From Candidatus Stercoripulliclostridium merdipullorum (GTDB lineage Bacteria > Bacillota > Clostridia > Christensenellales > DTU072): a stretch of 51,098 nt of DNA. Numbering within the stretch: the first letter of the stretch is position 1; the number at the start of each line of letters is the position of its first letter. The DNA is taken from NCBI GenBank assembly GCA_018713745.1, contig DVOH01000054.1:1-51098 (forward strand), in the 5' to 3' direction. Positions 2,565 to 45,577 of this stretch are shown one piece after another. The position numbers and the translations under genes are program-made. Below the pieces are notes generated by a model. It made no database searches. It was not told where the DNA came from and saw only the letters and a list, made by a program, of their open reading frames with translations.

Positions 2565-4886
2565 TTATTTCCCAAACACTTCCCGCGCAATGCGCACGGT
2601 TTCGGCGGCATCCTTGGCATAATAGTCGGCACCGATCTTCCGCGCAAACGCCGCCGTAATGACAGCACCGCCCACCACGGTTTTTCCCCGATAGCCGCTT
2701 GCGCGCAACAATGCGACCGTTTCTTTCATCGACTCCGCCGTCGTCGTCATCAATGCCGAAAGCCCCACCAGCCCGATGTCGTTGTCCAATGCTTCCCGCA
2801 CGATCCGTTCGGGCGCGACGTCTTTGCCGAGATCGATTACTTCATATCCGTAATTCTCGACCACGGCTTTGACGATATTTTTGCCGATGTCATGAATATC
2901 GCCTTTGACCGTCGCAAGAATCATCGTTCCTTTGCTCTCCCGCCTGCGCTCCATCTTGGAACGGATCACTTCAAATGCCGCCTTTGCCGCATCGGCGGAT
3001 CCGATCAGCTGGGGCAAAAAGATCTGTCCGCGTTCGTACAAAGCGCCGACCTCGTCCAGCGCGGGAATGAGTTTTCGATCGACGACATCACCGGTTGTTT
3101 CGGTCCCCAATGCCGCTTCGGTACGGCGGACGGCTTCCTCTTTCAATCCTTTGACGATTGCGTAAAACAAACTGCCGTCGTCGACATTCTGCTTCGCCTG
3201 TACGCCGCTCTCCGCCGCCGACCACTCTTTGACGGCAGGCAACGCGCCCGCGCCGTGAAGATAGCGGTGTGCGCCGATCATATCGACGATCAGCGGCGCA
3301 AAGGGATTTACGATAGCAAGTTTCAGTCCCGCCGCGATCGCTTCGGACAAAAACGCCGTGTTGATTAAATCTCTGTTTGGTAATCCAAACGAAATGTTGC
3401 TGACACCCAAAACGGTGCTGAACCCTTTTGCCGTCAATACTTTTAAGGTATCGAGACAGGCTTCGACCGGATAATCCCCCGTCGCAACCGTCAAGGTCAA
3501 TGCGTCAAATATAATGCGCTCGTCCCCGACGCCCGCCTCTGCAAGGCGACCGCGGATTTTGTCGGCAACGGCAAGACGACCTTCGGCGGTCTTGGAGATT
3601 CCGTTTTCGTCAAGGCAAAGAGCGACGACGCTTGCTCCGTAACGCGCGACTTTGGGGACAAAGGCTTCGAGGCTTTTGCTTTCGCCGTTGACCGAATTTA
3701 CCACCGGAATCCCGTTGTACGCACGCAAAGCACGTTCCAACGCTTCGGGATCGGAGGTATCGATCATCAGCGGAAGATCGGTCACCGCCTGAACTTTACG
3801 CACTAAAAGGGGCAATATCTCCTTTTCGTCCAGGTCGGGAATCCCGCAGTTGACATCGAGTAGCTCGGCTCCGTTTGTCGTCTGCGCCGCAGCTTCGCGT
3901 TCGGCATAGCCGTAATCGCCTTCGAGAAGCGCCTTGCGGAAGGCTTTCTTCCCCGTCGGATTGATCCGCTCCCCGACGATACGCAATTCATCCGTCGTAA
4001 CATAAACCTGTTCACTGCAAACCGCACCGCGGCAAACGACATGGCGCACCTTCGGCGTTTTGCCCTGCCGCAAACGGTTAAGAGATGCAATGTAGTCGGG
4101 CGTAGTTCCGCAACAACCGCCGATCAACGAAGCACCACGCTCGATCAGATCGGCATAATAGCGCGTAAATTCTTCCGCCGAATAATTTTCGTGTCCCGGG
4201 ACGCCCGCGTTCAGCTTAACCAGAATCGGCAAAGATGTGTGCGCGGCAAGCACTTCGACGGAAGGCGCAATCAGTTTAGGTCCCACCGAACAGTTAAATC
4301 CGACGGCAGCAGCCCCCAGCCGCTCGGCAAGCAACGCCATACACCTGACGTCGGTCCCGTTGACGGTATAGCCGCTGCGCTCGAAGCTCATCGAACATAC
4401 GACGGGCAAATTGCTGCAATCTTTGGCGGCAAGCAATGCGGCTTTCAGTTCGTAAAGAGAGGTAAAGGTCTCGAGTGCAATCAAATCGGCACCGTGTCGC
4501 ACCCCTGCCCGCACGACTTCGGCAAAGAGTTCGTATGCGGCGTCAAACGTCATGTCGCCCATCGGCTCGATCAACGCGCCCGTCGGACCGATGTCCAACG
4601 CAACGGTTTGCGCGCCGGCATTGCGGGCGTTCTCGATTGCGGCGGCAACGACACGGTCTACCGTCAGATCGGCAGGCAGTTTGTACCGATTGGCTTGAAA
4701 GGTGTTGGTATAAATAATATCGGCACCCGCATCGAGATAGCTCCGATGAATCTCGCGGATCGCTTCGGGGTGCGTGAGATTCAAGCGCTCGGGACAATCG
4801 GCAGACAGCCCCTTCTCTTGCAACATTGTCCCCATCGCACCGTCCAGCAGGACAAAGGAAGCACCGAACCGTTCAGTTAGTTTCAT
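2565..4886 (-). CDS. metH: Cobalamin-dependent methionine synthase lacking the activation domain
   Basis: Transfers the methyl group of 5-methyltetrahydrofolate to homocysteine through methylcobalamin. The 773 residues hold a homocysteine-binding TIM barrel (about 1-290) with zinc ligands Cys199, Cys258 and Cys259 (GGCCGTTP), a pterin-binding domain (about 305-560, starting GERINPTG), and a B12 cap and Rossmann domain (about 600-773). The cobalt-ligand motif DIHDIG has its histidine at about 665. The C-terminal AdoMet-binding reactivation domain of the roughly 1230-residue E. coli enzyme is absent, as in the short MetH forms of Thermotoga and many Clostridia, where a separate protein is thought to do that job; no such gene is in the window. 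The start codon overlaps the metF stop (ATGA), so the two are translationally coupled. Confidence 0.94.
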   Translation of the reverse strand: MKLTERFGASFVLLDGAMGTMLQEKGLSADCPERLNLTHPEAIREIHRSYLDAGADIIYTNTFQANRYKLPADLTVDRVVAAAIENARNAGAQTVALDIGPTGALIEPMGDMTFDAAYELFAEVVRAGVRHGADLIALETFTSLYELKAALLAAKDCSNLPVVCSMSFERSGYTVNGTDVRCMALLAERLGAAAVGFNCSVGPKLIAPSVEVLAAHTSLPILVKLNAGVPGHENYSAEEFTRYYADLIERGASLIGGCCGTTPDYIASLNRLRQGKTPKVRHVVCRGAVCSEQVYVTTDELRIVGERINPTGKKAFRKALLEGDYGYAEREAAAQTTNGAELLDVNCGIPDLDEKEILPLLVRKVQAVTDLPLMIDTSDPEALERALRAYNGIPVVNSVNGESKSLEAFVPKVARYGASVVALCLDENGISKTAEGRLAVADKIRGRLAEAGVGDERIIFDALTLTVATGDYPVEACLDTLKVLTAKGFSTVLGVSNISFGLPNRDLINTAFLSEAIAAGLKLAIVNPFAPLIVDMIGAHRYLHGAGALPAVKEWSAAESGVQAKQNVDDGSLFYAIVKGLKEEAVRRTEAALGTETTGDVVDRKLIPALDEVGALYERGQIFLPQLIGSADAAKAAFEVIRSKMERRRESKGTMILATVKGDIHDIGKNIVKAVVENYGYEVIDLGKDVAPERIVREALDNDIGLVGLSALMTTTAESMKETVALLRASGYRGKTVVGGAVITAAFARKIGADYYAKDAAETVRIAREVFGK

Positions 4887-5743
4887 CAGATCAAACTCCC
4901 GATATTTTCGTAAATTCTGCGAGCGACAAAGTCGTTGTTCATAATATAAAGATGTACCCCGTCGACGCCTTCGGCGCGCAAGGCAACGATTTGCTGTGTC
5001 GCATAAGCGATCCCCGCATCCATCAATGCCATAGGATCGTCGCCGAATCGCTGAAAGATTTTGGCAAGCGGCGCAGGTACTTTTGCCCCCGTCAGAACGA
5101 CGGTGCGTTCGATCTGCGCCTTTTTGACAATAGGCATAATTCCTGCCTGAACGGGAACGTCAATCCCTTTCGCGCGGCAAAGATCGCGGTAGCGCAAAAA
5201 ATCTTCGTTGTCAAAAAACAGCTGGGTATTGATATGCGTGACGCCGGCGTCGATCTTTTTACGCAGGTTTTCGATGTCCGTTTGGAGATCGGGTGACTCA
5301 AAGTGACCTTCCGGATACCCGGCTCCGACAATATTGAGATCGGAGTTGGCTTTGATGTAGGCGGCAAGATCGCTTGCGTACCGAAACACGTTTTGAGGCA
5401 CAATCGAAGGATTGCGGTCGCCGCGCAACGCAAGGACGTTTTGGATATTGCTTTTTTTGCACTCGGCAAGGAATGCGTCGACCGACGCTTCCGTCGACTG
5501 GATCGCCGTCAAATGCGCAAGCGGCTCGATGCCGTATGTGTTTTTGATCACGGAGGCAAGCTCCAGGGTGCGGTTTCCGCCCGCGCCGCCCGCATTGTAC
5601 GTTATGCTGATATAATCGGGCTTCAGTCCGCGGATCGCCTCCAACGTGGCATAAAGTTTGCCGATGGGAGAATCGGGCTTCGGGGGGAACAGTTCGTACG
5701 AAAACACAAAGGGTTTCCGATCAAATAAATCGCGGATCTTCAT
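4886..5743 (-). CDS. metF: 5,10-methylenetetrahydrofolate reductase
   Basis: Reduces methylene-THF to methyl-THF, the substrate of the MetH encoded just downstream. The protein is a 285-residue MetF TIM barrel with the family's N-terminal FSYELFPPK, the FAD/folate-region motif SITYNAGG, and LALRGDR in mid-protein. The ATG at 5743 is chosen because MKIRDLF matches the usual MetF N-terminus; an in-frame TTG at 5758 would add five residues but lies inside the promoter. No GGAGG-like RBS precedes the ATG. Instead a TATAAT box ends six bases before it, which suggests a leaderless mRNA. It is the first gene of metF-metH. Confidence 0.93.
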   Translation of the reverse strand: MKIRDLFDRKPFVFSYELFPPKPDSPIGKLYATLEAIRGLKPDYISITYNAGGAGGNRTLELASVIKNTYGIEPLAHLTAIQSTEASVDAFLAECKKSNIQNVLALRGDRNPSIVPQNVFRYASDLAAYIKANSDLNIVGAGYPEGHFESPDLQTDIENLRKKIDAGVTHINTQLFFDNEDFLRYRDLCRAKGIDVPVQAGIMPIVKKAQIERTVVLTGAKVPAPLAKIFQRFGDDPMALMDAGIAYATQQIVALRAEGVDGVHLYIMNNDFVARRIYENIGSLI

Positions 5744-5749
5744 ACCGAT

Positions 5750-5778
5750 ATTATACAAAAGAAAAAGCCGACCGTCAA
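5750..5778 (-). promoter_or_regulatory. metF promoter, predicted leaderless start
   Basis: On the minus strand TTGACG (5778-5773) and TATAAT (5755-5750) are separated by exactly 17 bases. Six bases (ATCGGT) follow before the metF ATG, so transcription should start at or next to the A of the ATG. The -35 box lies in the loop and 3' arm of the dhaKL terminator. Confidence 0.8.
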
Positions 5779-5796
5779 TGCGATCGGCTTTTTTTG
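5762..5796 (-). terminator. Terminator of the gldA-dhaKL operon
   Basis: On the minus strand an eight-pair stem (GCCGATCG with CGGTCGGC, one G-U pair, loop CATTGA) is followed by TTTTTCTTTT. It begins 13 bases after the dhaKL stop codon and physically contains the metF -35 box. Confidence 0.85.
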
Positions 5797-5808: not shown

Positions 5809-7560
5809 TTATTTTGCAAACTTCACCAGTTCGGTAAAGATAACGCCCAGTCCGTAAGCCCCTGCATCGGGATGTCCGATGCTGCGTTCGCCAACCGTTC
5901 CGGCTCTGCCCATCCGCGCTGCAATCTTCTTGGTGGCTTCGGCACCTTCGACCGCCGCTTTGGCGGCTTTGTCCATTGCGTCGATCAAGGCCTCTCCTTT
6001 GACGGCGGATGCACTGAGACTGTCTGCCGCGGGAACCAAGGCATCGATCAGCGTCTTGTCGCCGACGACGGCGCCGCGCCCGAAGGAGCGTTCGCCGGTC
6101 TCCTGAATCGCTTTGACGGCGGCTTGCATGATTTCGGCAAGTTGCTTCAAGTCGATTTCTTTGACGTCGCCCGCCGCTTTGCCCGCGCCGCGGAATGCCG
6201 AACCCCAGATGGGTCCCGAAGCTCCGCCGCAGTATTCCATAATAATTTCGGATGCGCTCTTCAAGAACTCACCGATGTTGCCTTTTTTGCGCGACTTCCA
6301 GTCTTTTTTGAGCTGTTTGAATCCTTTGGCAATGCTCATACCGAAGTCACCGTCACCGGCAACCGAGTCCATATCGCAGAAGTGAACTTCGTTTTCGATG
6401 ATAATATCCGCCATCTTGTCAATCAGTGCGACCATACCCGCGGTGTTGATCACGTCGGCAATAACGGGTTCGCCTTCTACTTCGTAGACGGCATCGTCGT
6501 GTTCGACCGCGTCAACAGAGCCTGTCGCAAGATCTTCGGCAACCGATTGCACCGCTTCGGTCGAATAGATTTTGAATGCGGGCGCATCGACGGGGTAGTC
6601 GATATGCGCTTTGAGTTCGTCATCCATTTTGAGAATCGTGACAGAAGCCCCTGCCATATCGATCGACGTCATGTAGTTGCCGACAAACGTGCGATAAATT
6701 TTTACGCCGGCTTTGGCAAGCTCTTTGCTGACGGAATTGTTGAAAAGATACAGTTCCTGCAAAGGAGATCCGCCGAATCCGTTGATCAACAAGCTGACTT
6801 CGTCGCCTTTTTTGACTTTAAGGTCGGCAATCAGATCCTTGACGATGCGCTTGGCAAGCTGATCGGCAGATTGAATTTTTTCTCTGGTTCTGCCGGGCTC
6901 TCCGTGAATTCCGACGCCGAATTCCATTTCGTCGTCGCCGATGTCAAACGTCGGCGTGCCTTTGGCAGGAACGGTACAGGACGTCAGCGCGAAGCCCAAA
7001 CTTCTGACATTGTCAATGGTTTTTTGCGCGATGGCTTTGACTTCCTCGAGAGATTTGCCCATTTCGGCGGCAGCGCCCGCGATTTTGTGCACAAACACGG
7101 TACCTGCGACGCCGCGGCGCCCGACGGTATAAAGGGAATCGGTAACGGCGATATCGTCGTTGACGTAAACGGCGTCGATCTGCAGTCCGTCGATGTCCTC
7201 TTTGGCAAGCTGCGCGGCATTGTTGAAGTTCATGCAGTCGCCCGAGTAATTTTTGATAATCAACAGCGTCCCTTTGTTGGACTTGGTCTGTTTGATTGCA
7301 TTGTAAACCTGAATCTGGCTGGGCGAAGCAAAAACGTCACCGCAAACCGCGGCATCGAGCATGCCTTTGCCGACAAAGCCTGCGTGTGCGGGTTCGTGTC
7401 CGCTTCCGCCACCGCTGATCAGCTGAACTTTGTTGCGGTTGACGGCTTTTTTCTTGACGACCTTGTACTGCTCGACAAATTCGAGTTCGGGATGGGCAAG
7501 TGCCAAGCCGTGGCACATATCGTATACAAAGGTTTCGGGGGTGTTAATGATCTTTTTCAT
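5809..7560 (-). CDS. Dihydroxyacetone kinase, fused DhaK-DhaL
   Basis: Phosphorylates dihydroxyacetone to DHAP in the cytoplasm. The N-terminal DhaK part (about 1-330) has GGGSGHEPAHAGFVG and IHGEPGR, whose histidine (about 219) is the residue that binds the substrate covalently in this family. The C-terminal DhaL part (about 375-583) has DMDSVAGDGDFG near residue 400, the aspartates that hold Mg-ATP. A K-L fusion of this length is typical of ATP-using enzymes such as that of Citrobacter; no DhaM phosphotransfer gene is nearby. The ATG is preceded by AGGAGG at ten bases. It follows gldA on the same strand with an 82-base gap that holds a hairpin, and the two form a glycerol-oxidation operon. 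Confidence 0.94.
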   Translation of the reverse strand: MKKIINTPETFVYDMCHGLALAHPELEFVEQYKVVKKKAVNRNKVQLISGGGSGHEPAHAGFVGKGMLDAAVCGDVFASPSQIQVYNAIKQTKSNKGTLLIIKNYSGDCMNFNNAAQLAKEDIDGLQIDAVYVNDDIAVTDSLYTVGRRGVAGTVFVHKIAGAAAEMGKSLEEVKAIAQKTIDNVRSLGFALTSCTVPAKGTPTFDIGDDEMEFGVGIHGEPGRTREKIQSADQLAKRIVKDLIADLKVKKGDEVSLLINGFGGSPLQELYLFNNSVSKELAKAGVKIYRTFVGNYMTSIDMAGASVTILKMDDELKAHIDYPVDAPAFKIYSTEAVQSVAEDLATGSVDAVEHDDAVYEVEGEPVIADVINTAGMVALIDKMADIIIENEVHFCDMDSVAGDGDFGMSIAKGFKQLKKDWKSRKKGNIGEFLKSASEIIMEYCGGASGPIWGSAFRGAGKAAGDVKEIDLKQLAEIMQAAVKAIQETGERSFGRGAVVGDKTLIDALVPAADSLSASAVKGEALIDAMDKAAKAAVEGAEATKKIAARMGRAGTVGERSIGHPDAGAYGLGVIFTELVKFAK

Positions 7561-8819: not shown

Positions 8820-8848
8820 ATTATACCCCGACCCTATAGACAAGTCAA
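8820..8848 (-). promoter_or_regulatory. gldA-dhaKL promoter
   Basis: On the minus strand TTGACT and TATAAT have a 17-base spacer. The expected start lies about 35 bases before the gldA ATG, leaving room for the AAAGGAG site. Confidence 0.85.
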
Positions 8849-8931: not shown

Positions 8932-11900
8932 TCAATTCCCTTTCTTCACTTTCTTGCGCGCGGCAAAGAATACGATCGAAGCGCAAGCAAGCCCGATGAT
9001 TACGCCGATTGCGATCCAAAGCCACGTCAAACTGCGCGGTGCTTCGATGACCAACGTATAAGTCGCCGTCGTTGCGGCATAATTGCCGTCGCCTGCGTAT
9101 TCGAGTTTGACGGTATAGGTCCCGGCTTCGGTGGGCATTGCCGACAGGGTCTGCCCGTTTGCGTCAATATAGGTGATCGTCACTTCGCCTTCATACGACT
9201 CAGCGTCTTTGATGATGGCGTTGAGGGAAGAACCCGACCCGCTCTCCTGTTTGAGATCCCCTTCCAGAATCAGATCGGGCAAGGCTTTTTCGACCGTCAG
9301 TTCGATCACACCTTCCTCTACCGTATAATGTGCGCTGTCGTACGGAACAAACTTCCAACGGTATTGCTTGGTTCCGACCGAAAGAACCGTCCCTTCCGCA
9401 AACGTGATGGTACCGGAGTTGGCGGGATAAACCGACAACTTGGGCAAAGCGTCTCCGTAGCGCAACACGACGTCTTTGTCTGCAAGACGAACGCTGACTC
9501 CGAGCTTTCCGGGACGAATTTTAAGTTGGGCGCTGACTTCGACATCGCGATAATTGGGTTTGGACAGCACGGCGGTCACGGTATAATCGCCGACTTCGAC
9601 GTACTCTACCGGTGTCGTATAACGCAACTTAACGCTTTCGTCGTTCAGGATGGGATGCGGAAGGAGTGCGAGGGAATGAGGTTTGCCGTCGTACACAAAC
9701 ACATTGCGGTCGTTGGCGACGTCAAATCCGAATGCGATTCCGCCGAAGTCGATTTCGGCAGGAATAATATAGTAACGCCGACTCGTTGCGCCCGATGCGA
9801 CATAATCGGAATTATCCCAGGACACCGACGCGGTAAAGCCCGCTTCCGTAACATCGACGCGATTGCCTTCGTACACGACCGAAAATGCCAGAGTTTCTCC
9901 TTCGATCACGCCTTCGACGCGGACATTTGCGGTTTTGAGGGTGTTGTCGTAAACGGCGTTTTCGATCTCGTCGAAGATAAACGTCACTTCTTTGGGATCG
10001 ATCCGATACATCTCACCGCTCAAAAAGTCGATGGAATAATTGGAACTACAGGCAAGCGTCCCCCTGACGATCTGATAACTTCCCGCATGAACGGCGTCGG
10101 TGCCTTGCGGCGTGACGGCACGCAGCGCACCCGTACCGATCCAGGCGTCCGCGGTCTGCCAAACGTCGCCTTCGATCCGGAAGCGGAATGCAATCGCCGA
10201 AACGGGCTGTCCGTCATACACTTTGAACTGCGGTACTTTATCCTCTCCTACCATCACGACGGGCTGAACTTCGACCTTCAGCGCAAGGATGGAAACGGCA
10301 CCCTTAAAGGTTTCGCTGGCGGAAGCGAAGTTGCTGTTCCCTTTGAACGTTACGCGCACGTCGTATTCTCCCGCATTGACGGGACGGTCGAGCAATGTCC
10401 AAACGCCGTCGATGAGATATTCGATGGTCAGCAGCCCGTTAAGATAATCGACACTGCCGGTAGATCCCGTTACTTTAACTTGACCCGCCTCTACGGCGTT
10501 TCCGCTGTATTTGGCGACTCGGTACTCCAACGTAATCTGCGGCTTTTCTTTGGCAATATTAACGGCTCCGCCGACGACTTGGGCGTTGTCGATATAATTT
10601 CCGTCCAGGGAGCGGAATTCGATACGAACGTCATAGATTCCGCTTGTGACAGGCAACTCGGGCGAGAAGTCGGAAGCCCCTTCTTTGCGATAAGTAACGG
10701 CTATAACACCTTCGGGTTTTTCGTTGCGCACACCGCTCACGACAGGAACGACTTCGAACGGTTGACCGGTATAACTGCCGCCGACCTTTGATTCGACGCC
10801 CAAAGTCGGACGAACGGGCACAATGATCAAGCCTTCGGCAAACTCTTTGGTCTGTCCGGCATAACTGTCGTTGGAAACATACGTTACGCGGATATTATAA
10901 GTGCCCGCATCGACGGGAGCTTCGGTATTCCATACCGAATTGTAGTAGTATTCGTAGCGGATCTCGCCCCGCGGTCTCAGCGAAGGCGAAATTCCCGAAG
11001 CGCTGACGAGAGAGCGAACGACGGGCAAGCCCGAATAATTGGCGGTACGGCTGGCTTCGGAAAGAAGCTCGATCATGCATTCGACGGGATAAATGGTCAA
11101 CGCGCTTTCAAAAACGCGCGGCGTCGTGCGATAGTTGTCGGCATTGCCGGGGGTGTAGACGACACGCACGTTGTAGACGGCGGCTTCTCTTGCCGACGGC
11201 ATGTAGTTGCCCGCTCCGTTTGCCTGATATTCAAAGGACCACCGTCCCGTCGGAACGCTTCCGCCGTCGGGGATCACAAAGGAAAGATGGTTTTCCGCAT
11301 TAAAGGCAAACGCACTGCCGTTGTAGTCGGTCGCTTCGGTGGCAAGCGACAAAGAAGGCGTCAAATCGTAACGTTCGATCACGACGGCATCGACAAACTG
11401 CTTCGAGGTCGTATTATAATTGGATAATCCCGTCGCATCGTAAGTCACGCGCACAACGTAAGCGCCGGCATTGTAAGGAGCTTCCGAAACCCAGTTGCCG
11501 TTGACCAGATATTCGTAAGAAATCCTGTCTTGCGGCAAGGTGTCGCGGTCGTTGCCCACACCGAAGGCTTGCGCAACCGCCGCCGCCACCGGAACGGGTT
11601 TTCCGTCCGCCGTCGAATAAACGGCGGTATTGGCGTCGAGAGACAGATTGACGTCTACCGAACGAACTTCGATGACGGTATGCTCCGATACCCATACGAT
11701 TTCTTTGTAATTGTCGCCTTCGGCGGGCAGATAGCGCGCTTCGACGAAATACCTGCCGGCATTGACGGGGATATCGGACACATAATCGACACCGTCTGCC
11801 GAATAACGATACGCAAACGTACCGAGAGGACGGCTGCCGTTTTCGATCGCGTCGGCGACTGCGAAAATCAGATCGGTATTGATGGGATCGCTGGTATAGG

Positions 11901-14900
11901 CGACGGAATAATCCTGCATCGAAACGACGGGTGCAACCGGCATAATCTGCAACCCGCTTTCAAACACGACAACGGTATCGCGGTAGTTGTCCCCTTCTTC
12001 GGCACGGAACGTCACTTCGACGGCATAAGTCCCGGCATTGACGGGGAGATCGTAAGTCCACTCACCCGCAATCATATATCGGTACGAAAGCCTTGCGGGA
12101 TCGTCTTTCCCGATGGGGGCGGTGGGGGCAACGGATTCGCCCTCGACGCCTTCGAAGCCCGTAACCGTTGCGCCCGAAACGGGCTTGCCGCTCCCGTCGT
12201 AGTCCGTCGTAGCGGGGGTCAGATTGAGCGACACTTCGGCGGGAACGACTTGAATCTCTGCAACGGAAGACCCGATGGTAAAGATATAATTGCGCGCCGA
12301 GATCCCGCTTTCCTTAAGATCGACGGTATAAACGGTACCGACGGAATCGAAGCGGTTGCGCGGAATTTCGACCGCGGGAGGCGTATAGTCGTCTACAGTC
12401 CCGTCTTCGACCGACTCGCCGTAACGGAAGCCGTCAAAGATCAGATTGAAATTGATTTGATCTTCGGCGTCGCCATAAACGATTTCGGAGCTGCCTTCGC
12501 TCGAAACATTGACCGATACTTCGGCGGGAACGACCGTAATCGTACTGCCGACAAACTCAAAAACATAGTTTTTATGCTCGTTGATCATCAGTTCGGGCAT
12601 CAGATCGTAAGTACCGACGTCTTTATGAAGTGCGATATCGTAGTTGACGCTGAGCCCAAGCCCTTCGAGAATCGATTGGGGAGTATCGGATCCCGGAAAT
12701 CCTTGGCTGGTATCCCCTGCCCCGCTTGTCAGATATGTAAACGTAAAGTTTGGCGTATCGCCGTACGGGATGGAAAGGATTTTGCCGAGATAAATCGTCA
12801 TCGTCCGTTTGTGTACCGTGACTTCAACCTCTTCCTTGACCGAAAGGGTATAAATCCCGTCGTTATCGCGATACCCGGGGTGGAACACCGTCAGGGTTGC
12901 GGTGCCGGCTCCGGTAATTTTGATATAGCGGTCGTTACGATTTTCGTACCCCGGCATCACTTCGAGAATCGAAGGATCGGAAGAGGTCAGCGTAAAGTCG
13001 GTGCGCCCCGAATCCAGCTGCACCTGAAAACCGTAAGCGGGGTTGCCGTAGGTTTTTTCGACGGGAATATCGGACACGTCTGCCGAATGGGCTTTTTTGA
13101 TGCAGAACGTATAAATATGATCGCCCGAATCGACATAGTTTTCATTGTTGAGATAAGCCGTAACGCGGAAGGTCCCGAACCCGCCCGTCAGACGCATCGT
13201 TACGCCGGTACGGGAGAACTGCGTTGCTCCTGACGAAAATCCGGCAAACTCTCCATAGTAGTATTCGACTTTGGTCGAAGTAATCTCGGCATAAGGCTGT
13301 TCGCCGCCGCCGACGTTTTCAACCAGAACCGTTGCCTGAAGGGGATTGGGATAAATCGCCGTCGTCATAAAATAGAACGTAAATACGCCGATATCGGACG
13401 GGATCTCGTAATCCGCGCCCGATACGCTGTCGGCGCGGATCCCGCGTTCGTCATCGGTGGGATCGACAAACAGAAATTCCTGATGCGCGCGGACGATCAC
13501 AAACGTCAGCGCAATACCGCCCGTATAATTGTTACGACCGTTGATTACGACGCGGGCGGTCGAGCCGACGCTGAAGTTGTTTTCAAAGCGCAGTTCATAG
13601 TCGACTTGGTTGACGAGCTGTTGCTCGCCTTCGGGGCGTCCGCTGTCGATCACGGTAGGATCGGGTTCGTGGTACTGTCCGGTAAATTCATATTCGGACT
13701 GCGGGAGAGACGCCCAGCTTTGCTGCAGTTGTTTGGGGTTGATCGTAAAGGTGACTTCGATTTCGCCGGTATAGTTCCCCTGCCCTTCGAAGTACATTTT
13801 TCCGCCGGGATTTACGTTGATGTTCTCGCCGTAAGACACAAAGCGATAATCCGTCCCTTCCAGCAAGATTGCCTTGCGGTCGGGATCGGTCCATACAATC
13901 GTGCTGCTATCGGGTTGATGCGCATATCCCGTGTAGGTAACGGAAGGCAGATTGCCCGCCCACTCCTGCGAAAGCTCTTTGGGCAAAATATCGAAGGAAA
14001 CGCTTAATTCGCCCCCATAGTTTCCGATCCCTTTGACTTTGACGACGGCGCCGGATTCCGTCACGTTCCGATTGTTGAAATACTCCAACGCGTATTCTTT
14101 GTTGTATGCCAGCGTAACGCCTCTGCCGTCGTTGCGATCGGGATCGAACACCGCAGGCATCGGCGTAATCGCGCCGCCGGTGTAAGTATAAGATGCTTCG
14201 ATGCCGCTCAGCCATGCGCTCTGCAAGGCGCGCGGAAGGATACGGAAGGGAATATCGATCTGCCCTTCAAAATTGACCCTTCCTTCGATCCGGATGGTTC
14301 CGCCCGTTGCGACCTCGATGTTATCGCCGTAACTTAAAATCACGAAGTCTTGCAGATTGGTCATGGTATAAACGACCGAACCGTCCCCGTTGCGAACCTG
14401 AACGGTGGTCGGTTGGGGGCGGAAGGCGTTGCCGGTATAGGTAACGTCATCGGAATACAAAGCCACAGCGTCGGCGGTCAAATCTTTTTTGGCAATTTGG
14501 AAGGTCAGTGTCTGCTCGCTTCCGTAATTCCCGATGCCGCGCACGGTCACGGTTCCGCCGGTGGCAACATATTTATTTTCGCCGAAGACGACTTCATAGT
14601 CCTTTCCTTCGACCGGCACATAAAAAGACTGACCGTCCGCTAACACGATATTTTTGTCTCGAATGGAAACTACGGGCGCAATTTGTCCCGCCGTGTAGAC
14701 ATAGCTTTCACGGATTCCCGAAAACTCCCAGCTTTTGGTCACGGGACGCGGCGTGATTTTGAACTCGAGCTCCATCGTACCCGTATAGTTTCTTAAGCCT
14801 GTCAAAATTATCGTTGCCGAGTCGGTTACGTTAAGATTGTTGCGGTAGGTCGCGTTAAGATCGGGGTTGGTGCCTCCGATGATCAACTTCTGATCGGAGT

Positions 14901-16365
14901 TTTTATTGCGCAACGTCGGAAGCGGCTTGATCGGACTTCCTGTGTATTCCATTTCGGAAGGCGACTCGACGCTGATATAATCGGTATCGTTGATCGATCG
15001 CGGATTGATGGTGAAATAAATAATTCTTTCCCCGGTGAAATTACCCTTCCCGATGACTTTGATCTGCGCTTGACCGGCGTCTTTGATCGAAACAAACTGT
15101 ACGGTAAAATCGCCCGCGCTGGCTTTCATATCGGCGGTAAATTCTTTTCCTCCTTCGGTAAAGAGCAACTGAAGCGCATCCCATTCGGGCACTCCCTCCC
15201 CGTTTGTCTTGAAAACGATATCTCTGCCGGTATAAATATAGTCGTCGGAGATAAAATCGTCCAGCTTGTCTGCGAGATCGATGGGACGCGGGATAATGCT
15301 GAAGTCGGAGGAAGCGATTTCGCCGACTTTGGTTCTGGTGCCGAATCCCAGCGTCGAAGTATAAACGCTTGCGCTTAAACTATAATTACCTACGGTAACC
15401 GGACGTCCCGACACGGATTCGCCGATCGTCAAATCCATATAGCTTTGCTCCAGCTGGAAGCCCGAAAGATTCAACGTTGCGGTTGCGCCCGTTTCCGCCC
15501 CCGTATAAGTATATGGATTGGCGTTGTTCAATCCGATTTTGGTGAATTTCGGCGTAATCTGCGTCGAAGGGCTGAACAGATACAAAGGCTTGGTCGTCAT
15601 ACGGAACCCCGTGACGGATTGACCGCCACTGCCAAGATTCCACCCGGTATAGACATAACCGTCGGCGTAACTTGCCTGATACGTTACGGTATCGGCAGGC
15701 GTTTTGGGCGCGGCGGAAGTCCTGTTTGTGCTGCCGCCGGTCAGGCTTTCGGGAACGTTAACTTCAAGATTCCACTCGGTCACTTTGACGGTGACCGAAT
15801 TGATTCTTTGATAAATTTCCGCCGAACATTTTTTACCGAACGCCCCGGACGTCGAGTTTGTCGCAACCGCACGCATGCTGATCGTAAAAGAATTTTTGTT
15901 CAGCGGCCCCGAATATCCCGTCAGATTGGAATTGCTCGACATCGCCGACGCACCCTGACCGTTGACCGTCAAAGTGGTTCCGTTGTCCCGCCCTTGTCTT
16001 AGATCATATACATAATCAAGGGTAATCGTAACGCTTTTGACACGACCGTTGCTGATCGCGGTGCCGAGATTGCCGCCAATATAAAATGTCGTGCTGTCGC
16101 TAACATTAACATTTGCGTGCACCTGATTGCCGACCCAAGAGCCGGGACTGGTATGGTGACCACCGACTTGCCAGTTGACATTACTGAACGTTACGGTCGG
16201 ATTGGCAAAATTATTGCTGCTGGCATGCTTGTCGGATGCCGCCTCAGCAAAAGGAGCAAACCTTAAAAACGGCAGTCCCCCTGCGCCCAGCGCAAACAGC
16301 GCCGTCAGTGCGACGATCAGAATCAAGCCGATCAAGCCGATCTTCCCAACACGTTTCGCTTCCAT
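8932..16365 (-). CDS. Giant membrane-anchored surface protein with MBG-type repeats (2477 aa)
   Basis: A secreted, cell-attached repeat protein. Residues 1-42 form a signal peptide (cleavage near FAEA). A unique domain (about 50-205) contains FYIGG...LGTAISNGRVKSVTI and is related to the N-terminus of the upstream giant. An InlB/Listeria-Bacteroides-type segment follows (ADGYVYTGW, about 210-265), then some 22-24 tandem beta domains of 65-100 residues to about 2400. Early copies start YTG..(P)P and end NYTG..F.I.PR; later ones carry PVNAGTYDVRVTF. These resemble MBG/bacterial Ig-like stalk domains. The last 33 residues are a transmembrane helix followed by RKKVKKGN; there is no LPXTG motif. 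GGGAGG precedes the ATG and abuts the upstream stop, 12 bases away, so it is coupled to that gene. Role inferred: adhesin or surface fibre. Confidence 0.82.
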   Translation of the reverse strand: MEAKRVGKIGLIGLILIVALTALFALGAGGLPFLRFAPFAEAASDKHASSNNFANPTVTFSNVNWQVGGHHTSPGSWVGNQVHANVNVSDSTTFYIGGNLGTAISNGRVKSVTITLDYVYDLRQGRDNGTTLTVNGQGASAMSSNSNLTGYSGPLNKNSFTISMRAVATNSTSGAFGKKCSAEIYQRINSVTVKVTEWNLEVNVPESLTGGSTNRTSAAPKTPADTVTYQASYADGYVYTGWNLGSGGQSVTGFRMTTKPLYLFSPSTQITPKFTKIGLNNANPYTYTGAETGATATLNLSGFQLEQSYMDLTIGESVSGRPVTVGNYSLSASVYTSTLGFGTRTKVGEIASSDFSIIPRPIDLADKLDDFISDDYIYTGRDIVFKTNGEGVPEWDALQLLFTEGGKEFTADMKASAGDFTVQFVSIKDAGQAQIKVIGKGNFTGERIIYFTINPRSINDTDYISVESPSEMEYTGSPIKPLPTLRNKNSDQKLIIGGTNPDLNATYRNNLNVTDSATIILTGLRNYTGTMELEFKITPRPVTKSWEFSGIRESYVYTAGQIAPVVSIRDKNIVLADGQSFYVPVEGKDYEVVFGENKYVATGGTVTVRGIGNYGSEQTLTFQIAKKDLTADAVALYSDDVTYTGNAFRPQPTTVQVRNGDGSVVYTMTNLQDFVILSYGDNIEVATGGTIRIEGRVNFEGQIDIPFRILPRALQSAWLSGIEASYTYTGGAITPMPAVFDPDRNDGRGVTLAYNKEYALEYFNNRNVTESGAVVKVKGIGNYGGELSVSFDILPKELSQEWAGNLPSVTYTGYAHQPDSSTIVWTDPDRKAILLEGTDYRFVSYGENINVNPGGKMYFEGQGNYTGEIEVTFTINPKQLQQSWASLPQSEYEFTGQYHEPDPTVIDSGRPEGEQQLVNQVDYELRFENNFSVGSTARVVINGRNNYTGGIALTFVIVRAHQEFLFVDPTDDERGIRADSVSGADYEIPSDIGVFTFYFMTTAIYPNPLQATVLVENVGGGEQPYAEITSTKVEYYYGEFAGFSSGATQFSRTGVTMRLTGGFGTFRVTAYLNNENYVDSGDHIYTFCIKKAHSADVSDIPVEKTYGNPAYGFQVQLDSGRTDFTLTSSDPSILEVMPGYENRNDRYIKITGAGTATLTVFHPGYRDNDGIYTLSVKEEVEVTVHKRTMTIYLGKILSIPYGDTPNFTFTYLTSGAGDTSQGFPGSDTPQSILEGLGLSVNYDIALHKDVGTYDLMPELMINEHKNYVFEFVGSTITVVPAEVSVNVSSEGSSEIVYGDAEDQINFNLIFDGFRYGESVEDGTVDDYTPPAVEIPRNRFDSVGTVYTVDLKESGISARNYIFTIGSSVAEIQVVPAEVSLNLTPATTDYDGSGKPVSGATVTGFEGVEGESVAPTAPIGKDDPARLSYRYMIAGEWTYDLPVNAGTYAVEVTFRAEEGDNYRDTVVVFESGLQIMPVAPVVSMQDYSVAYTSDPINTDLIFAVADAIENGSRPLGTFAYRYSADGVDYVSDIPVNAGRYFVEARYLPAEGDNYKEIVWVSEHTVIEVRSVDVNLSLDANTAVYSTADGKPVPVAAAVAQAFGVGNDRDTLPQDRISYEYLVNGNWVSEAPYNAGAYVVRVTYDATGLSNYNTTSKQFVDAVVIERYDLTPSLSLATEATDYNGSAFAFNAENHLSFVIPDGGSVPTGRWSFEYQANGAGNYMPSAREAAVYNVRVVYTPGNADNYRTTPRVFESALTIYPVECMIELLSEASRTANYSGLPVVRSLVSASGISPSLRPRGEIRYEYYYNSVWNTEAPVDAGTYNIRVTYVSNDSYAGQTKEFAEGLIIVPVRPTLGVESKVGGSYTGQPFEVVPVVSGVRNEKPEGVIAVTYRKEGASDFSPELPVTSGIYDVRIEFRSLDGNYIDNAQVVGGAVNIAKEKPQITLEYRVAKYSGNAVEAGQVKVTGSTGSVDYLNGLLTIEYLIDGVWTLLDRPVNAGEYDVRVTFKGNSNFASASETFKGAVSILALKVEVQPVVMVGEDKVPQFKVYDGQPVSAIAFRFRIEGDVWQTADAWIGTGALRAVTPQGTDAVHAGSYQIVRGTLACSSNYSIDFLSGEMYRIDPKEVTFIFDEIENAVYDNTLKTANVRVEGVIEGETLAFSVVYEGNRVDVTEAGFTASVSWDNSDYVASGATSRRYYIIPAEIDFGGIAFGFDVANDRNVFVYDGKPHSLALLPHPILNDESVKLRYTTPVEYVEVGDYTVTAVLSKPNYRDVEVSAQLKIRPGKLGVSVRLADKDVVLRYGDALPKLSVYPANSGTITFAEGTVLSVGTKQYRWKFVPYDSAHYTVEEGVIELTVEKALPDLILEGDLKQESGSGSSLNAIIKDAESYEGEVTITYIDANGQTLSAMPTEAGTYTVKLEYAGDGNYAATTATYTLVIEAPRSLTWLWIAIGVIIGLACASIVFFAARKKVKKGN

Positions 16366-16377
16366 AAAAACCTCCCG

Positions 16378-19300
16378 TTAAGGTTTTTGAATTAAGTTTT
16401 CCGCAACAAACGGCGTTGCGTATCCGACGGAAACCGAACCTAAGTTTTCGCCGTTGATCTCTACTTTGGCAGAAGTTTCATACTCTTCGCGGATCAGATC
16501 GTAACCCGACTTGTTGGTCCCCGCTACCAAACCGGCATAGGCCGTCGCGCCGTAAACGCGGATGGTATCGACGACCACGTTCATTTCGGTAATGGCATTG
16601 AGCATAAAGCTGCCTTCGGTCTCGGTTCTGCCGACGATGCTGCCGATGACGCCTCCGACTTCGGCGGTTGCCGCCGTTACGTTGATCTGAATCGACGTGA
16701 TCGCACCGAAGATCTGTCCGCCCTCGGCAACCCCGATGACGCCGCCGATCTTTACCCGACTTCTGCCGACGGTGTTGACGTCGATGACGCCTTGCACTTT
16801 GACCGAATTAACTTGTCCGCCGACGCGGTTATAATCCGCCACCGTACCGAAGACGAGATCGGCGTCGGGCTCGGCGATTTTAGCGGTTTTTACGCCCGCG
16901 GGGATCTGACTTTCATCGGAGTAAATCCGGTAGTCCACGATGAGATTGAGGTTGCGGACGTCGCCCCCGTTGAGGTGGAACAACGCCTCCGTCAGCCCCA
17001 TGATGCTTTTTCCGTCGCCGTCAAACGTCCCTTTGAATTCGGCATTGCCGCCGAGCGATTGGAAGTCGTAGCGATAATTGTCGGCTTCGGTCAATTCGCC
17101 GTCGCCGTCAAAATCTCCGATGACGATGTCGTTGCCGAGCTTGAACGAAGCAAACATATAACTACCGACTTTCAAGAGATCGGTGTAAGTATAAATCACA
17201 AACGGATCGAAGTCGCTGCCGTCCCCGTCGCGGAAGGGATAGAAACCTTCTAGAATCTCGCTGACGCGCCGGCCGCCGAGTTCCATGCCGACCTCTTCGC
17301 CGTAGCCGATGACTTCGGAATATTGTTTGGTCGCGATATCGGTCAAGTTGCCCGCGCTGTCGTTTTGTCCGATCGTTTTATTCAGCAGACTGCCGTTGAC
17401 GTAAACATTGCCGACAACGTCATAAATGCCGCGTCCCGTCACAGCCGAACCGTCGACATATCCGATCGCACCGCCCACAAACCCTTTGGCATAACTTGCG
17501 GTAATCACGGATACGCTCAGTACGTCGCGGACGGAAGATGCCGATTCGGCACGCGCGATGACACCGCCGACCAGAGCTTCTCTTGCTCCTTCGACCGCGA
17601 TCGACACCATCGAAACGGCAAGGTTAACCGATCCGCCTTTTTGAGCGGCGACGATTCCGCCGATATATCCCGAGCCCGATCCTTCGGTCATAACGATCGT
17701 ACCGCTTGCCACGACGTTTTCGATCGAAGCTCCTTCATAAAGGAACGCCGCCGCCGCGCCGGCATAAACCTCTGCCCCACCGAGGACAAAATCGATATTG
17801 AGCAATACGAGATTGCGGATCGTCCCTTTCAGTTGAACGATAAACGCCGCAACCGACCCTTCCGTCACCGTTAAATTAGAAATACTGTAACCGTCCCCGT
17901 CGTAAACGCCGGCAAACGGAACCCGTTGTCCGAGCGGATTGAATGCCCCGGAAACGCTGAGATTGAGGGTCTGGCGGAAATATGCCCACGGTAGCCATTC
18001 CAGCGCCAACAATTTGTCGACGTGATCGATCAGGAAGGGATCTTCCGCGGTACCGGATCCTGCCAAGCCCCAGGAACCGAGGCGTGATGCCGTCAGTTCG
18101 GCAACGGTATTGACTTTTTGGAGAGATGCTTCTTCCCCTACGATTTCTTCCGATTCCATGAAGAATGCAAAGTCCTGTCCGACAAAGCTATCGGGAATCA
18201 CAATACTTTCGGCATCGCCGAACAAACGATCGGGCATTGCCGTCGCATTGACAAAGACTGCATTACGATTGTAATGGAAGGTACCCGTAATCGTATCCGC
18301 TCCGTCTCCCACCGATGTTACGAGATCGGTGACCGACCCGGCGACCGAACCGACCGAAGCGCGCGTTCCTTCCGATACAACGACGCCGACGGAATATCCG
18401 CCGATCAGCACGAGGGTGGAAGCTTCCCCGACCATACCGCCGATCTTACCGGAAGACGCGGAGGAAACATCGATATCGACATACGAGTAACAAGTGCTGA
18501 CGCCGCCGATTGCCGTCGCAATGCGTCCGACAATCCCGCCGAAGACGACATCTTCCGCATCCGAAATCCGAACGGCACCGAGCGCATACGAGCCGGTAAT
18601 ACCCGTCGTGTCGCCTGTCAGAACGGCGGCATGATAACCGACGACGGCATGATCGGATGCGATTTCGAGATCCCAGGACACGCCGAGGTTGGTGATCAGT
18701 CCCTGAAGATTTGCAAACAAACCGAACTTTTCGGACGAAACCGTTATCGTTTCCTCTGCAAAGATCCGATAGCCCTGTCCGTCATAGGTCGCGGTAAAGG
18801 GATATTCCGTGCAAAGCGGACGGAAATCGGCAGTGACCTCGATATCCGCCGTCTGATAGAAACGTGCCTGCATCCGAGCCGTCGAAAGGAAGTCGTAGCG
18901 TCCGTCGGGATTGACATACAGTTCGACATAGGCAAGATCCTCTGCCGAATTGACATGGAAAATGGCGCTGTCGTTGTCGCTGTAATCCTTAAAGTATACC
19001 AATTTATATTGCTGTCCCGTCCCGTTCGCGATCAGGAAGTTGTCAATTGCGGGCGTCACGACAAGGTCAAAAACGCCGAGCGCTTTGTCGCCGAGCAGAC
19101 TTTCGATGTCGGAATAGGCATAGCCGAACGTCGCTTCGCTGAATCCGACGTTCAAGACGATTTCGCCGAACAAATCGAAGGCGTCTTCGTCGGTGATTGT
19201 AATTGCGGGTCCCGTTGCACCCGCCTGCAACGCTTCGGACAGGTTGTCGTAACGCAGATAAATCGAACGGTAAAGCTGTACTTCGCAAATTATATTCGCC

Positions 19301-22300
19301 CCTTCGACGACAACCGAGAGCGTTGCTTCGGTCGTCGAAGTATTTTCGGCTTCCGTCCCGACGGGTTCCTCGAAGGCATCCGACGTTACCGAAAGGGAAC
19401 GGAAGAAATACGGAGCCGCCGTCGAAACCGCGAAGTCCACCGTTTCGCCGCGGAGATAGTTGCCTGCGCCCGATACAAACGCAAACCCTTCTCCCGCAAC
19501 TTCGCCGACTTTGGCAACCGTCGAAACTTTATATCTTCCGCTGTCCAGACGGATGATCCCGAGATCGTCGATGGCAGAACGCACGCCCGAACCGCTGAGC
19601 ACGCTGAGCTGATAATAGCGTTCGATCCCGCCGCCGCCGTTTCCGTCAATACAGGTTTCGTCGTGAACGGCAAAGGAATACCTGTCGCCCTCGAGTCCGG
19701 CATCGATCCACTCTCCCCAATCGGAACCGTTATCCGATACCCGATACTGGGCTACCGCACCCGACGTCCCCGTCAGGGACAGGAAGTAGGTATAAACGAT
19801 ATCGCCCTGTTTGACATACCATCCGGTCGATGCGTCATAATAGCTTTCGGAGTCGTGCGACGCCGTAAATTGCGGAATGACGCGATCGATGCGGACAAGC
19901 TGAACGTCGCTTTCCCACTCGATGCCCGATCCGCTGACCAGCTTCAATTTGAATTCTTTTTGAATATCGGTATCGATCAGATAAGAATCTCCGCCCGCTT
20001 CGACATAATCGCTCCACACGCCCGATGCCGGTTCGCTTTCGGCGACCAAAACCGTATATCCCGACGGACCCGAAACGATTTCGTTCAAGGTCAGCGTGAC
20101 CGCTTGATCCGTCCAAGCGCCCGTATAAGGAGCGCCTGAGGCAACGGCTTCGAAAGAAGCGGAAACTTCGGTCTTATCGATTCGGATCGCGACCGAAGAA
20201 GCGATGGTCGAAGCTTTCCCGTTGTTTCCGACCAGTCGATAGAAGAAATATTTGCCGTTTGTCGTCTCCGAAACGGTTTCGACGCGTTCGATCCCGCGAC
20301 CTTCCCCGACATCGCCAAGCTTGGTCCATTGCGCATCGGAAAGATCGGCATCCGCCGTATCGGCAATGACATACTCGAGTACGGCACCCGCCGCCCCGAC
20401 GTTCATCAACACGTTCAGCAAAATATCGGACGCCGTCCAGAAGGTGCCGTCATACGGAAGATCCGCCGCTTCGGCTCCCACCGAAACTTCGGGGGTAACG
20501 GTGTCTTTGCAGAACAAAATTTCGCCGTCGTACATCGCAACGGTTCCCGCCCCGGTCACGGCACGGAAGCGATAGCGATTGGCTTGCGACGCCGAGAGGA
20601 TCAACGACGGATTCAAGGTGTCGTTACCCACAATCGTCTGATGAATATTGCCCCCTGTAACGACATCCAAAATATCGCTTTCGGTTACCCAATTTATACC
20701 GTCCGTACTAAACTCAACCCAGCCGCCACTTGCGCCGAAGCCGGTATATCTGCCGTCAAACACGATCGAAAACTCGATGAGGGCCTGCTCGGAGTCGTCA
20801 TTGAGCCAAGTGCCGCTGACATAGTCGGTTGTAAGCGACAAGCTGAACCCGTCCGTCGTATCGATCAACGGACGCACTGCGGAATACGTCGCAATGTTTC
20901 CGGCAACGTCGGACATTGTAATCACATAGTAAGCGTCGTCTGCCGCCGCAAACGAGTAATTGACATTGTCAAGAGAAGTCAACGCGACATCTTCCCCTTC
21001 TCCCGAAAGCGAAGCGTCAAAATATTTTTTGACGGCTACCGTCTGAATGCCGCTTCCCGTCGGACCGTCCGTTGCGACAAAGGAAGCGATTGTCGCGCGG
21101 TTCACCCATTTCGTGCGAATCGAGGGATATGCCGTGCCGTTTTCGGCGTCGCGGAAAATCACGGAAGGCGTTGCCGGAGTGGTGCTGTCGATCCGTACGA
21201 CGCCGAAATCGATGGGGCCGCGAACGACACCCGACCCGGTCAAAAGGCGAATCTGCAAAACATCGTTCTGTTCGGCGCGGATTTCGATGACTTCGGAGCG
21301 ATGCTGAATATCCCCGTTTTCGTTGCCTTCTTCAAAGACAAACCCGCTCTCGCAGAACGGGAAGTCGCGCCACGTTCCGCCGGTGCCGATCATATATTGC
21401 AATTTGACGCCCGAAGGACTGAAAGTCAACTCGGTATCGATTCTGAGATAAGCATCGTCGCCATAGACCTGACGGCTGATCCAGGTCGCCGTTGCGGGAT
21501 CGTCGTCGGCGACATAGGCTTTATCGGTACTGCCGATAAACGCTCCGTACGCCAGTTCGGGTTCTACCTGGTCGATATTGGCGCGGAACACGACGCTGAT
21601 CGCATTCCCCGCGGCGTCGGTCACCGTCACGACATAGTCGGTACACTTGGTCATCGAAAATTGGTAACGCCCGCCTTCGTAACTGACTGCGACAACGTCT
21701 TCCCCGTTGACGGCATTCACGGTCAAACCGCCGCTGTTGACGATCCCGAGGGTGTCTTCCGCCGTCAGCCAGGCAAGGAGCGTTTCTTTGCGCCATTCGG
21801 TCTGGTACGGCGTCAGATCGATCTGATCGGAAATACGCGGCGCGGTCCGATCGATCTTGACGTCACCGAATGCAGTGACGTCCCCGGTCAGCTCTCCTTT
21901 CGAAACGGCGCGGAAAACGTAGTTTTGCGCCTGCTCTGCCGTCAAACGGACTTCATACGTTACCGTTCCGGTAATATTGGTCTTGTAGTATTCGTCGGCA
22001 TTGTCGACATTCAGATATACCGATCCGTCCTCGATCAGTTGTCGGAAGGAAGTTCCGTCGTTGGAAACCAGCGGTCTTACGCCCGAAGCGCCCGTCGTAA
22101 CGGTCAGCAGAATTACGATTTCGTCGGCATTGACCCAAACACCGGGGGTGTAGTCGCTCGAAACGCTGACGGTCGGGACAACGATATCGACATTGGCGCG
22201 AACCTCGAGGGGGCGTTTGTCGGGATCGTCGTTTTCAAACGTCGAACAGTTGCCCGCTTTGTCATAGACCGTAAACCGATAAATCCGGTTGTCCGTCAAA

Positions 22301-43730: not shown

Positions 43731-44272
43731 TTGGCGTAAACCTCGGGTTTCAGCACGCCGACCATCGGCAGATTGCGATATTTCTCGTTGTAGTCAAGCC
43801 CGTAGCCCACGACAAACTCGTTGGGAACTTTGAAGCCGACGTAATCTCCTTCGAGTTCGACTTCGCGCCGCTCGGGCTTGTCGAGCAGGGAGCAGATTTT
43901 GAGGGAGGCGGGACCGCGGTTGAGCAGCATATTGTAAAGATATTTCAGCGTATGCCCGGTGTCGATAATGTCTTCCACGACGATGACGTCCAATCCGGCA
44001 ATCGGTTGCGAAATGTCTTTGACGATCTTGACTTCGCCGCTCGACGAAGTCCCCGCACCGTAACTGGAACAGGCAATAAAGTCCATCCGGACGTCAAGGT
44101 CGATATATTTGACCAGATCGGCAAAAAACATCACCGCGCCGCGCAGGGTACAGATCATCAGCACCGAACGCCCGGCATAATCGCGGGTGATTTCGGCGGC
44201 GATTTCTTTGACGCGTTGCTGAATGGAGGCTTCGTCAATCAGAATTTTTTCGAGATCGGGGTGCAGTTTCAT
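43727..44272 (-). CDS. hpt: Hypoxanthine phosphoribosyltransferase
   Basis: Salvages hypoxanthine and guanine to IMP and GMP using PRPP. The 181 residues are the normal length; the PRPP-binding motif is VIVVEDIIDTGHT, the flexible-loop region SSYGAGTSSSG and the base-binding segment NEFVVGYGLDYNEKYRNLP are all present. AAGGAG lies eight bases before the ATG, inside the end of tilS, whose coding region overlaps this gene by 38 bases. The tilS-hpt pairing is conserved in many Firmicutes, including Bacillus, where ftsH follows; here cca follows instead. Confidence 0.95.
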   Translation of the reverse strand: MKLHPDLEKILIDEASIQQRVKEIAAEITRDYAGRSVLMICTLRGAVMFFADLVKYIDLDVRMDFIACSSYGAGTSSSGEVKIVKDISQPIAGLDVIVVEDIIDTGHTLKYLYNMLLNRGPASLKICSLLDKPERREVELEGDYVGFKVPNEFVVGYGLDYNEKYRNLPMVGVLKPEVYAK

Positions 44273-45542
44273 AGTCGTTCTCCTTGTAAACTTTCAGTAT
44301 CTTCGTCGTGGTTGGATCCACTTTGACGGATTCGGATATTTCGAGTCCGAGCACGGCGTATACCGTCTGCCCTCCGGCAAGCACAAGCATACGGTCGCGC
44401 TCGGCGCGCGGAATCTTAGCGTCGATCAGATAATCGGACAACAATTTTTGTTTTCCGCCGCATCTGCGGAAACGGTCGCCGTCTGCCCGCAACCGGATCA
44501 CCGCGCCGGAGGGAAGTTTGTCGGGATCGAAGGTTAAGCCGCGCTCGATCGTCCGTGCCGGCTCAAAGCGATATGCCGCGCCCCCATAGCGGTAAACACG
44601 GTCGGCATCGAACGGAGTCGGTGCAAAGCCTCCTTCGGGCGTTACGCGTCGGAAGGAGATTCCGTCGTACTCCCGCGTCGCGCGGAAGCCCCCCGGCAGA
44701 TCGATGCCGCTCCCGTTGGGGAGATCGTTGAGTCCGCGCAACGCCTCGAGATTCCTGTGCCCGAGATCGTGCGACGCTCCCGCCCGACGCGCCGCTTCGG
44801 CAAGCGACTTCTTGGCAAGAACGGGAGAATTGTCCAGCGCCGCAAGCGGCAAAACCACGGCGTCGCCGCGCACAAAACTCGGCGTTACGGCGTCGGCAAG
44901 ATATCGATCGACTTCTTCAAACCGTTCCGCCGTCCGGCACAGCGTGTCCCGAACGTTCGGAAAGCGCGTTTCGATCAGCGGCAACAGGCGATGTCGGATA
45001 AAATTGCGGGTAAACCGCAGATCGGCGTTGCTTTCGTCTTCCGTATAAGGAAGGTCGTGCTCGCGCGCATAGCGTTCGATTTCCGCCCGCGTCCGATGCA
45101 ACAACGGATGGATATAGCCCGCGCGATCGACGATGCCGGCAAGCCCTTTCGTCCCCGTTCCGCGCAGAAAACGCATCAGAACGGTTTCGGCATTGTCGTC
45201 GGCATGGTGAGCAAGCGCAACGACGTCGACTTCGCCCTCCGCAAGCAAACGGTCGAATACGCCGTAACGGAGTTCGCGCGCGGCAACCTCGAGCGATACC
45301 CCGTGTTCCGCCGCATAAGCGGGCGCGTCCACATGAAAACATCGGAATTCGTACCCGTTCCGCTTGCAGTACGCCTCGACAAACGCCGCGTCCCCGAGAG
45401 ATGCCTCCCCGCGGATCCCGTGCTCGACGTGCAGTACGACGAAATCGCATTCTTGCCGCAACAAATCCAGGAGCGTCATCGAGTCGATCCCGCCCGAAAC
45501 CGCAATCCCGACCTTATGATACGCGCGCTGCAACAGTTTCAT
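44235..45542 (-). CDS. tilS: tRNA(Ile)-lysidine synthetase
   Basis: Changes the wobble C of the AUA-reading tRNA-Ile to lysidine, an essential step. The N-terminal PP-loop is VSGGIDSMTLLDLL (SGGIDS at 16-21), HHADDNAETVLMRFLRGTGTKGLAG is the family's second signature, and RFTRNFIRHRLLPL completes the catalytic domain. The C-terminal third includes FRRCGGKQKLLSDYLIDAKIPRAERD, the TilS C-terminal domain. 435 residues is normal. There is no RBS before the ATG; instead TATAAT ends exactly six bases upstream, which points to a leaderless transcript. It heads tilS-hpt-cca and diverges from the flavodiiron gene. Confidence 0.94.
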   Translation of the reverse strand: MKLLQRAYHKVGIAVSGGIDSMTLLDLLRQECDFVVLHVEHGIRGEASLGDAAFVEAYCKRNGYEFRCFHVDAPAYAAEHGVSLEVAARELRYGVFDRLLAEGEVDVVALAHHADDNAETVLMRFLRGTGTKGLAGIVDRAGYIHPLLHRTRAEIERYAREHDLPYTEDESNADLRFTRNFIRHRLLPLIETRFPNVRDTLCRTAERFEEVDRYLADAVTPSFVRGDAVVLPLAALDNSPVLAKKSLAEAARRAGASHDLGHRNLEALRGLNDLPNGSGIDLPGGFRATREYDGISFRRVTPEGGFAPTPFDADRVYRYGGAAYRFEPARTIERGLTFDPDKLPSGAVIRLRADGDRFRRCGGKQKLLSDYLIDAKIPRAERDRMLVLAGGQTVYAVLGLEISESVKVDPTTTKILKVYKENDYETAPRSRKNSD

Positions 45543-45548
45543 AGTGCT

Positions 45549-45577
45549 ATTATATCAATTCATGGTCCGCTTGTAAA
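45549..45577 (-). promoter_or_regulatory. tilS promoter, predicted leaderless start
   Basis: On the minus strand TTTACA (45577-45572) and TATAAT (45554-45549) have a 17-base spacer, then AGCACT and the tilS ATG. This is the same -10-to-ATG spacing as at metF, with no ribosome binding site. Confidence 0.78.

Follow-up and report, generated by a model that had tools for sequence, protein, structure and literature searches.

The metF-metH locus

The window analysed, a stretch of 51,098 nt from Candidatus Stercoripulliclostridium merdipullorum, an uncultured bacterium of gut type within the Clostridia, carries on its minus strand the genes dhaKL, metF and metH in that order of transcription (Table 1). 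The dhaKL-metF gap is 65 bp, and within it an apparent terminator for the upstream gene and the metF promoter overlap. Upstream on the same strand lie two adjacent very large ORFs (8932-16365 and 16378-25185; 2477 and 2935 aa). The product of the first has an apparent signal peptide, a membrane anchor at its C-terminus and many repeats that contain YTG.

Table 1. Coordinates of the features discussed (window positions unless a genome locus is given)
Feature	Position	Strand	Description
metF -35 box, TTGACG	5773..5778	minus	Falls within the hairpin loop of the dhaKL terminator and the first bases of its 3' arm
metF -10 box, TATAAT	5750..5755	minus	17-nt spacer, 3' of the -35 box
metF discriminator, ATCGGT	5744..5749	minus	6 nt from -10 box to ATG; T at -1
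metF ATG	5741..5743	minus	A5743 is the predicted first transcribed base; leader of 0-2 nt predicted from geometry
metF	4886..5743	minus	Methylenetetrahydrofolate reductase, 285 aa; Pfam MTHFR, E 4e-73; predicted leaderless
metF-metH junction	4884..4900	minus	GGGAG SD at 4900-4896; TGATG stop/start overlap at 4888-4884
metH	2565..4886	minus	Cobalamin-dependent methionine synthase, 773 aa; S-methyl_trans, Pterin_bind and B12-binding domains; second gene of the unit
dhaKL terminator hairpin with T-tract	5762..5793	minus	Intrinsic type; overlaps the metF promoter; fold -19.5 kcal/mol, z -4.07
dhaKL	5809..7560	minus	Dihydroxyacetone kinase with Dak1 and Dak2 fused in a single protein
tilS start	45540..45577	minus	TTTACA-17-TATAAT-AGCACT-ATG; second predicted leaderless start in the window; CDS 44235-45542
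dnaA of this genome	G000:C41:12977-13014		Locus L182; orthologue loci L189-L218 and L249-L277

The arrangement that a sequence-only reading had described, TTGACG and TATAAT 17 nt apart and ending six bases before the metF ATG, is exact (minus strand, 5778-5741). With 11 of 12 consensus bases at a 17-nt spacing the promoter is one of two that good in the 7.5 kb scanned, and it conforms to the sigma-70/sigma-A pattern of TTGACA and TATAAT 16-18 nt apart. By contrast, the promoter of the neighbouring dehydrogenase gene (start 8779) is of the ordinary kind: its -10 box ends at 8820, approximately 40 bp before the ATG. At metF the A of the ATG lies 7 nt from the final -10 base, the usual start distance, and on this geometry transcription is predicted to begin on that A. 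Transcription starts can shift one to three bases around the optimum and G is an acceptable initiating base, so that a start a few bases upstream, at G5746 or G5745 for example, would yield a 2-3 nt leader and an mRNA that is functionally but not strictly leaderless. Such a start is nevertheless unlikely, given the optimal distance of the A and the pyrimidine found at -1 in 27 of the 28 genomic matches to TATAATN6ATG described below, which favours A as +1. The base is T in 25 of these 28, whereas T occupies this position in 51% of SD-led genes and in front of 23% of all ATGs, and a pyrimidine preference at -1 is as expected if +1 is the A of the ATG.

The metF start codon is fixed by the agreement of two lines of evidence: the Pfam MTHFR domain reaches from residue 2 to residue 282 of the 285, which places the AUG at the true N-terminus, and the start position, together with a similar N-terminus, is common to most orthologues in the alignment. 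A TTG upstream (5758) was rejected as the start, because it overlaps the -10 box and is without an SD, and because the orthologues begin at the ATG. The view that metF has no ribosome-binding site also held: the anti-SD duplex energy is +0.9 kcal/mol, where -4 or better is called an SD, and by that threshold 72% of the first-ATG starts sampled from 451 kb of the genome have one. The first T of the -10 box (T5755) is exactly 12 bp from A5743. In this position of the TANNNT motif, in the missing SD and in the sigma-70-like consensus, metF resembles the leaderless (TA-led) genes surveyed by Zheng et al. 2011, in which the first T lies approximately 12 bp before the start codon (PMC3160421).

The dhaKL terminator is of the intrinsic type, a GC-containing hairpin of 13 pairs followed by CTTTTG, and the metF -10 box comes after its T-tract. 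A single 65-bp spacer would both terminate dhaKL, as its fold and T-run suggest, and start metF, with terminator and promoter merged. Such a fusion could couple dhaKL termination with metF initiation, and some read-through from dhaKL may pass beyond the terminator. That metF is chiefly translated from a longer read-through mRNA, the promoter-like box being weak or silent, is improbable: dhaKL is indeed on the same strand and only 65 bp away, but a strong hairpin and T-tract lie between the genes (Table 1), and the longer mRNA would likewise give metF no SD.

Initiation at the metF promoter is thus preferred as the source of the metF message, but the original proposal that metF and metH are both leaderless stands for the first gene alone, where promoter geometry supports the prediction. 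The second gene is not leaderless, because it has its own SD, 9 nt upstream of its start, and overlaps the metF stop. Within metF-metH, only metF is predicted to be leaderless, and metH is coupled to the metF stop.

It had further been argued that a leaderless methionine operon would be free of any riboswitch. SAM-I (S-box, RF00162) control of methionine genes acts in the same pathway, but here an Rfam search of the window gave no match, and hence no S-box aptamer for the methionine operon, and no RF00162 match occurs across the whole genome although metF-metH is present. A SAM-I riboswitch as an alternative metF leader was rejected on these grounds. The lack of a riboswitch is therefore nothing special at metF: no SAM-I riboswitch was found anywhere in the genome, so its absence here does not follow from the gene being leaderless.

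A class of -10-adjacent starts in the genome

The frequency of this architecture was assessed by whole-genome pattern searches and in the 451 kb sample, which includes the window and provides 349 genes with a usable ATG start from a simple codon-based gene caller. The genome-wide search for TATAAT close before ATGs, suggested at the outset, yielded 28 matches to TATAATN6ATG versus 8 for the reversed pattern. Twenty-two of the 28 lie at the start of an ORF no shorter than 60 aa, and a -35 box matching at no fewer than four of six bases, 16-18 nt away, accompanies 14 of these 22 but none of the six that open no ORF, where agreement is only 1-3 of 6. The fuller motif TTGN20TATAATN5YATG occurs 13 times in the genome versus once in the control. 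In the sample, a -35 box (at least 5/6), a 16-18 nt spacer, TATAAT and 5-7 nt to the ATG were found together at 5 of 10,308 ATGs, and at none in the reversed sequence. The reversed-pattern control is imperfect, since the neighbourhood of genes is itself enriched in both ATG and TATAAT, and therefore an offset histogram and an internal-ATG control were added. The offset of -10-like boxes peaks at exactly 6 nt before the first ATG (11 of n=349 genes, p 8e-5), compared with 2.6 per offset elsewhere and 0.84 for internal ATGs.

An SD is present at none of 18 sampled genes with a -10 box at 5-7 nt, versus 58 of 64 with the box at 20-45 nt, although this absence is partly mechanical, as the box occupies the SD position. 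It was accordingly rejected as fully independent evidence, and the -1 pyrimidine, the offset peak, the -35 match and recurrence among orthologues were relied on instead. AT-rich intergenic DNA often contains consensus matches, and 6 of the 28 genomic matches open no gene, but a chance adjacency of TATAAT and ATG at metF, with the true promoter or start codon elsewhere, is very improbable in the face of the 13-to-1 and 5-to-0 excess of the full architecture in genome and sample and of a start codon fixed by Pfam boundary and orthologues.

The 22 gene-opening matches include TilS and MetF, as well as genes that we take, from their sequence, to encode DnaA, MrnC, thiamine pyrophosphokinase, SpoIIIAA, an RqcH-like protein, a low-molecular-weight phosphatase, glycerate kinase and others. 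On the sample census, roughly 3-5% of the genes of this genome are predicted to be leaderless. Elsewhere in the genome (G000:C47:14678-14760, L186), two divergent genes have predicted leaderless starts facing apart, with ATGs approximately 80 bp from each other; these genes are presumably YbaK-like and thiamine pyrophosphokinase-like.

Relatives and known leaderless systems

Among 102 distinct metF orthologue sequences, 87 are SD-led. A -35/-10 pair lies 6-7 nt before the ATG in only four (the window, L026, L016 and L083), each with 17-nt spacing, and these four come from different families; orthologues from the same family (L006, L010, L012 and L027) have leaders. Conservation was therefore rejected as proof of a leaderless metF, the arrangement being sporadic. 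Those metF relatives that have names are MAGs of uncultured Clostridia, among them Candidatus Borkfalkia and one labelled Christensenella, so that the order is probably Christensenellales-like.

The class as a whole is distributed differently. Counts of TTGN20TATAATN5YATG were compared between 121 genomes of the order and 289 Bacillota genomes from outside the class: the former have a median of 5 and reach 34 at most, the latter a median of 1 and at most 8, a difference with p 3e-31 before any correction for kinship or base composition. The clearest case is the replication gene dnaA: of 27 orthologues sampled within the order, 13 carry a -10-like box at 4-9 nt from the ATG, and these 13 stem from several families. 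Twelve of them, of the TTG-17-TATAAT type with the box 6-9 nt from the ATG, lack an SD; in each of the 12 a TTG is found at 16-18 nt and a T or C at -1. Outside the order, no adjacent box was found in 29 Bacillota dnaA genes (Fisher p 1e-5 versus the order), 27 of which have an SD, mostly a very strong one. For tilS, 6 of 17 orthologues show the leaderless-type arrangement. Judged from these promoter and start-codon arrangements, leaderlessness is not conserved for metF, yet is a recurrent trait of the order.

Leaderless mRNAs had been considered uncommon in Bacillota, but they are less exceptional than this suggests. TA-led genes occur in 56 of 209 Firmicutes genomes, where they average 4.2% of genes, comparable with the estimate made here; the cases are concentrated in Lactobacillales and Mycoplasma, whereas the present ones belong to a Clostridia order of uncultured bacteria (PMC3160421). 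In Streptococcus pneumoniae D39, transcription of 9% of operons begins precisely on the first coding base, and translation without a ribosome-binding site was demonstrated for pbp2A by a direct reporter test; those starts were measured and the present ones are predicted, in a distant lineage and for other genes (PMC6212727). Leaderless mRNA in Deinococcus-Thermus is driven by a -10 box placed a few bp ahead of the ORF, for which a specific spacing is needed; the -35 box is described there as an enhancing addition, whereas here most cases keep the -35 TTG at 17 nt and SD-led genes are still the majority (PMC12340547). Among clostridia, RNA-seq studies report leaderless transcripts for C. acetobutylicum (PMC4533764) and, rarely, for C. 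difficile, with 15 candidates (PMC7438776). A literature search on leaderless genes in Christensenella-like bacteria found no relevant paper. Leaderless genes are thus already known in Bacillota, and metF by itself is ordinary.

Initiation at metF and its meaning for the order

A leaderless sigma-A transcript starting at the metF AUG is the best-supported reading and a highly probable one, its start site being deduced from promoter geometry. The case is built on promoter geometry, the missing SD, the genome-wide class with its -1 pyrimidine, and the recurrence of the arrangement among orthologues in many families. RNA polymerase would use a housekeeping sigma-70/sigma-A type promoter and start on the A of the AUG, leaving a leader of 0-2 nt. 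Ribosomes, probably as 70S particles, would then recognise the 5'-terminal AUG directly, without an SD, as is expected from the known behaviour of leaderless mRNAs, including the S. pneumoniae reporter test (PMC6212727). On this transcript the metH cistron would follow, translated by means of its own SD and by coupling to the stop codon of metF.

Descriptions of leaderless initiation in Bacillota have so far come mainly from Lactobacillales and Mycoplasma, supplemented by some RNA-seq reports on clostridia. The present data point to a large order of Clostridia with frequent leaderless starts that, for dnaA, recur across the phylogeny. It is tentatively proposed, as a possibility somewhat short of an even chance, that a whole order of uncultured Clostridia has adopted leaderless initiation as a permanent second way of expressing genes, and that this includes dnaA, which in many families would have exchanged the strong SD seen in other Bacillota for a -10 box immediately before the AUG. 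If so, dnaA, tilS, uvrC, rarA and metF would be controlled as a group via leaderless translation, for instance through the balance of IF2 and IF3 or the availability of 70S ribosomes. On the practical side, gene finders that score SD sequences may misplace starts in these genomes. It is the order-wide pattern with its recurrent leaderless dnaA that is worth pursuing, and the coexistence of SD-led and leaderless dnaA provides a clean comparative system for asking why genes change their mode of initiation.
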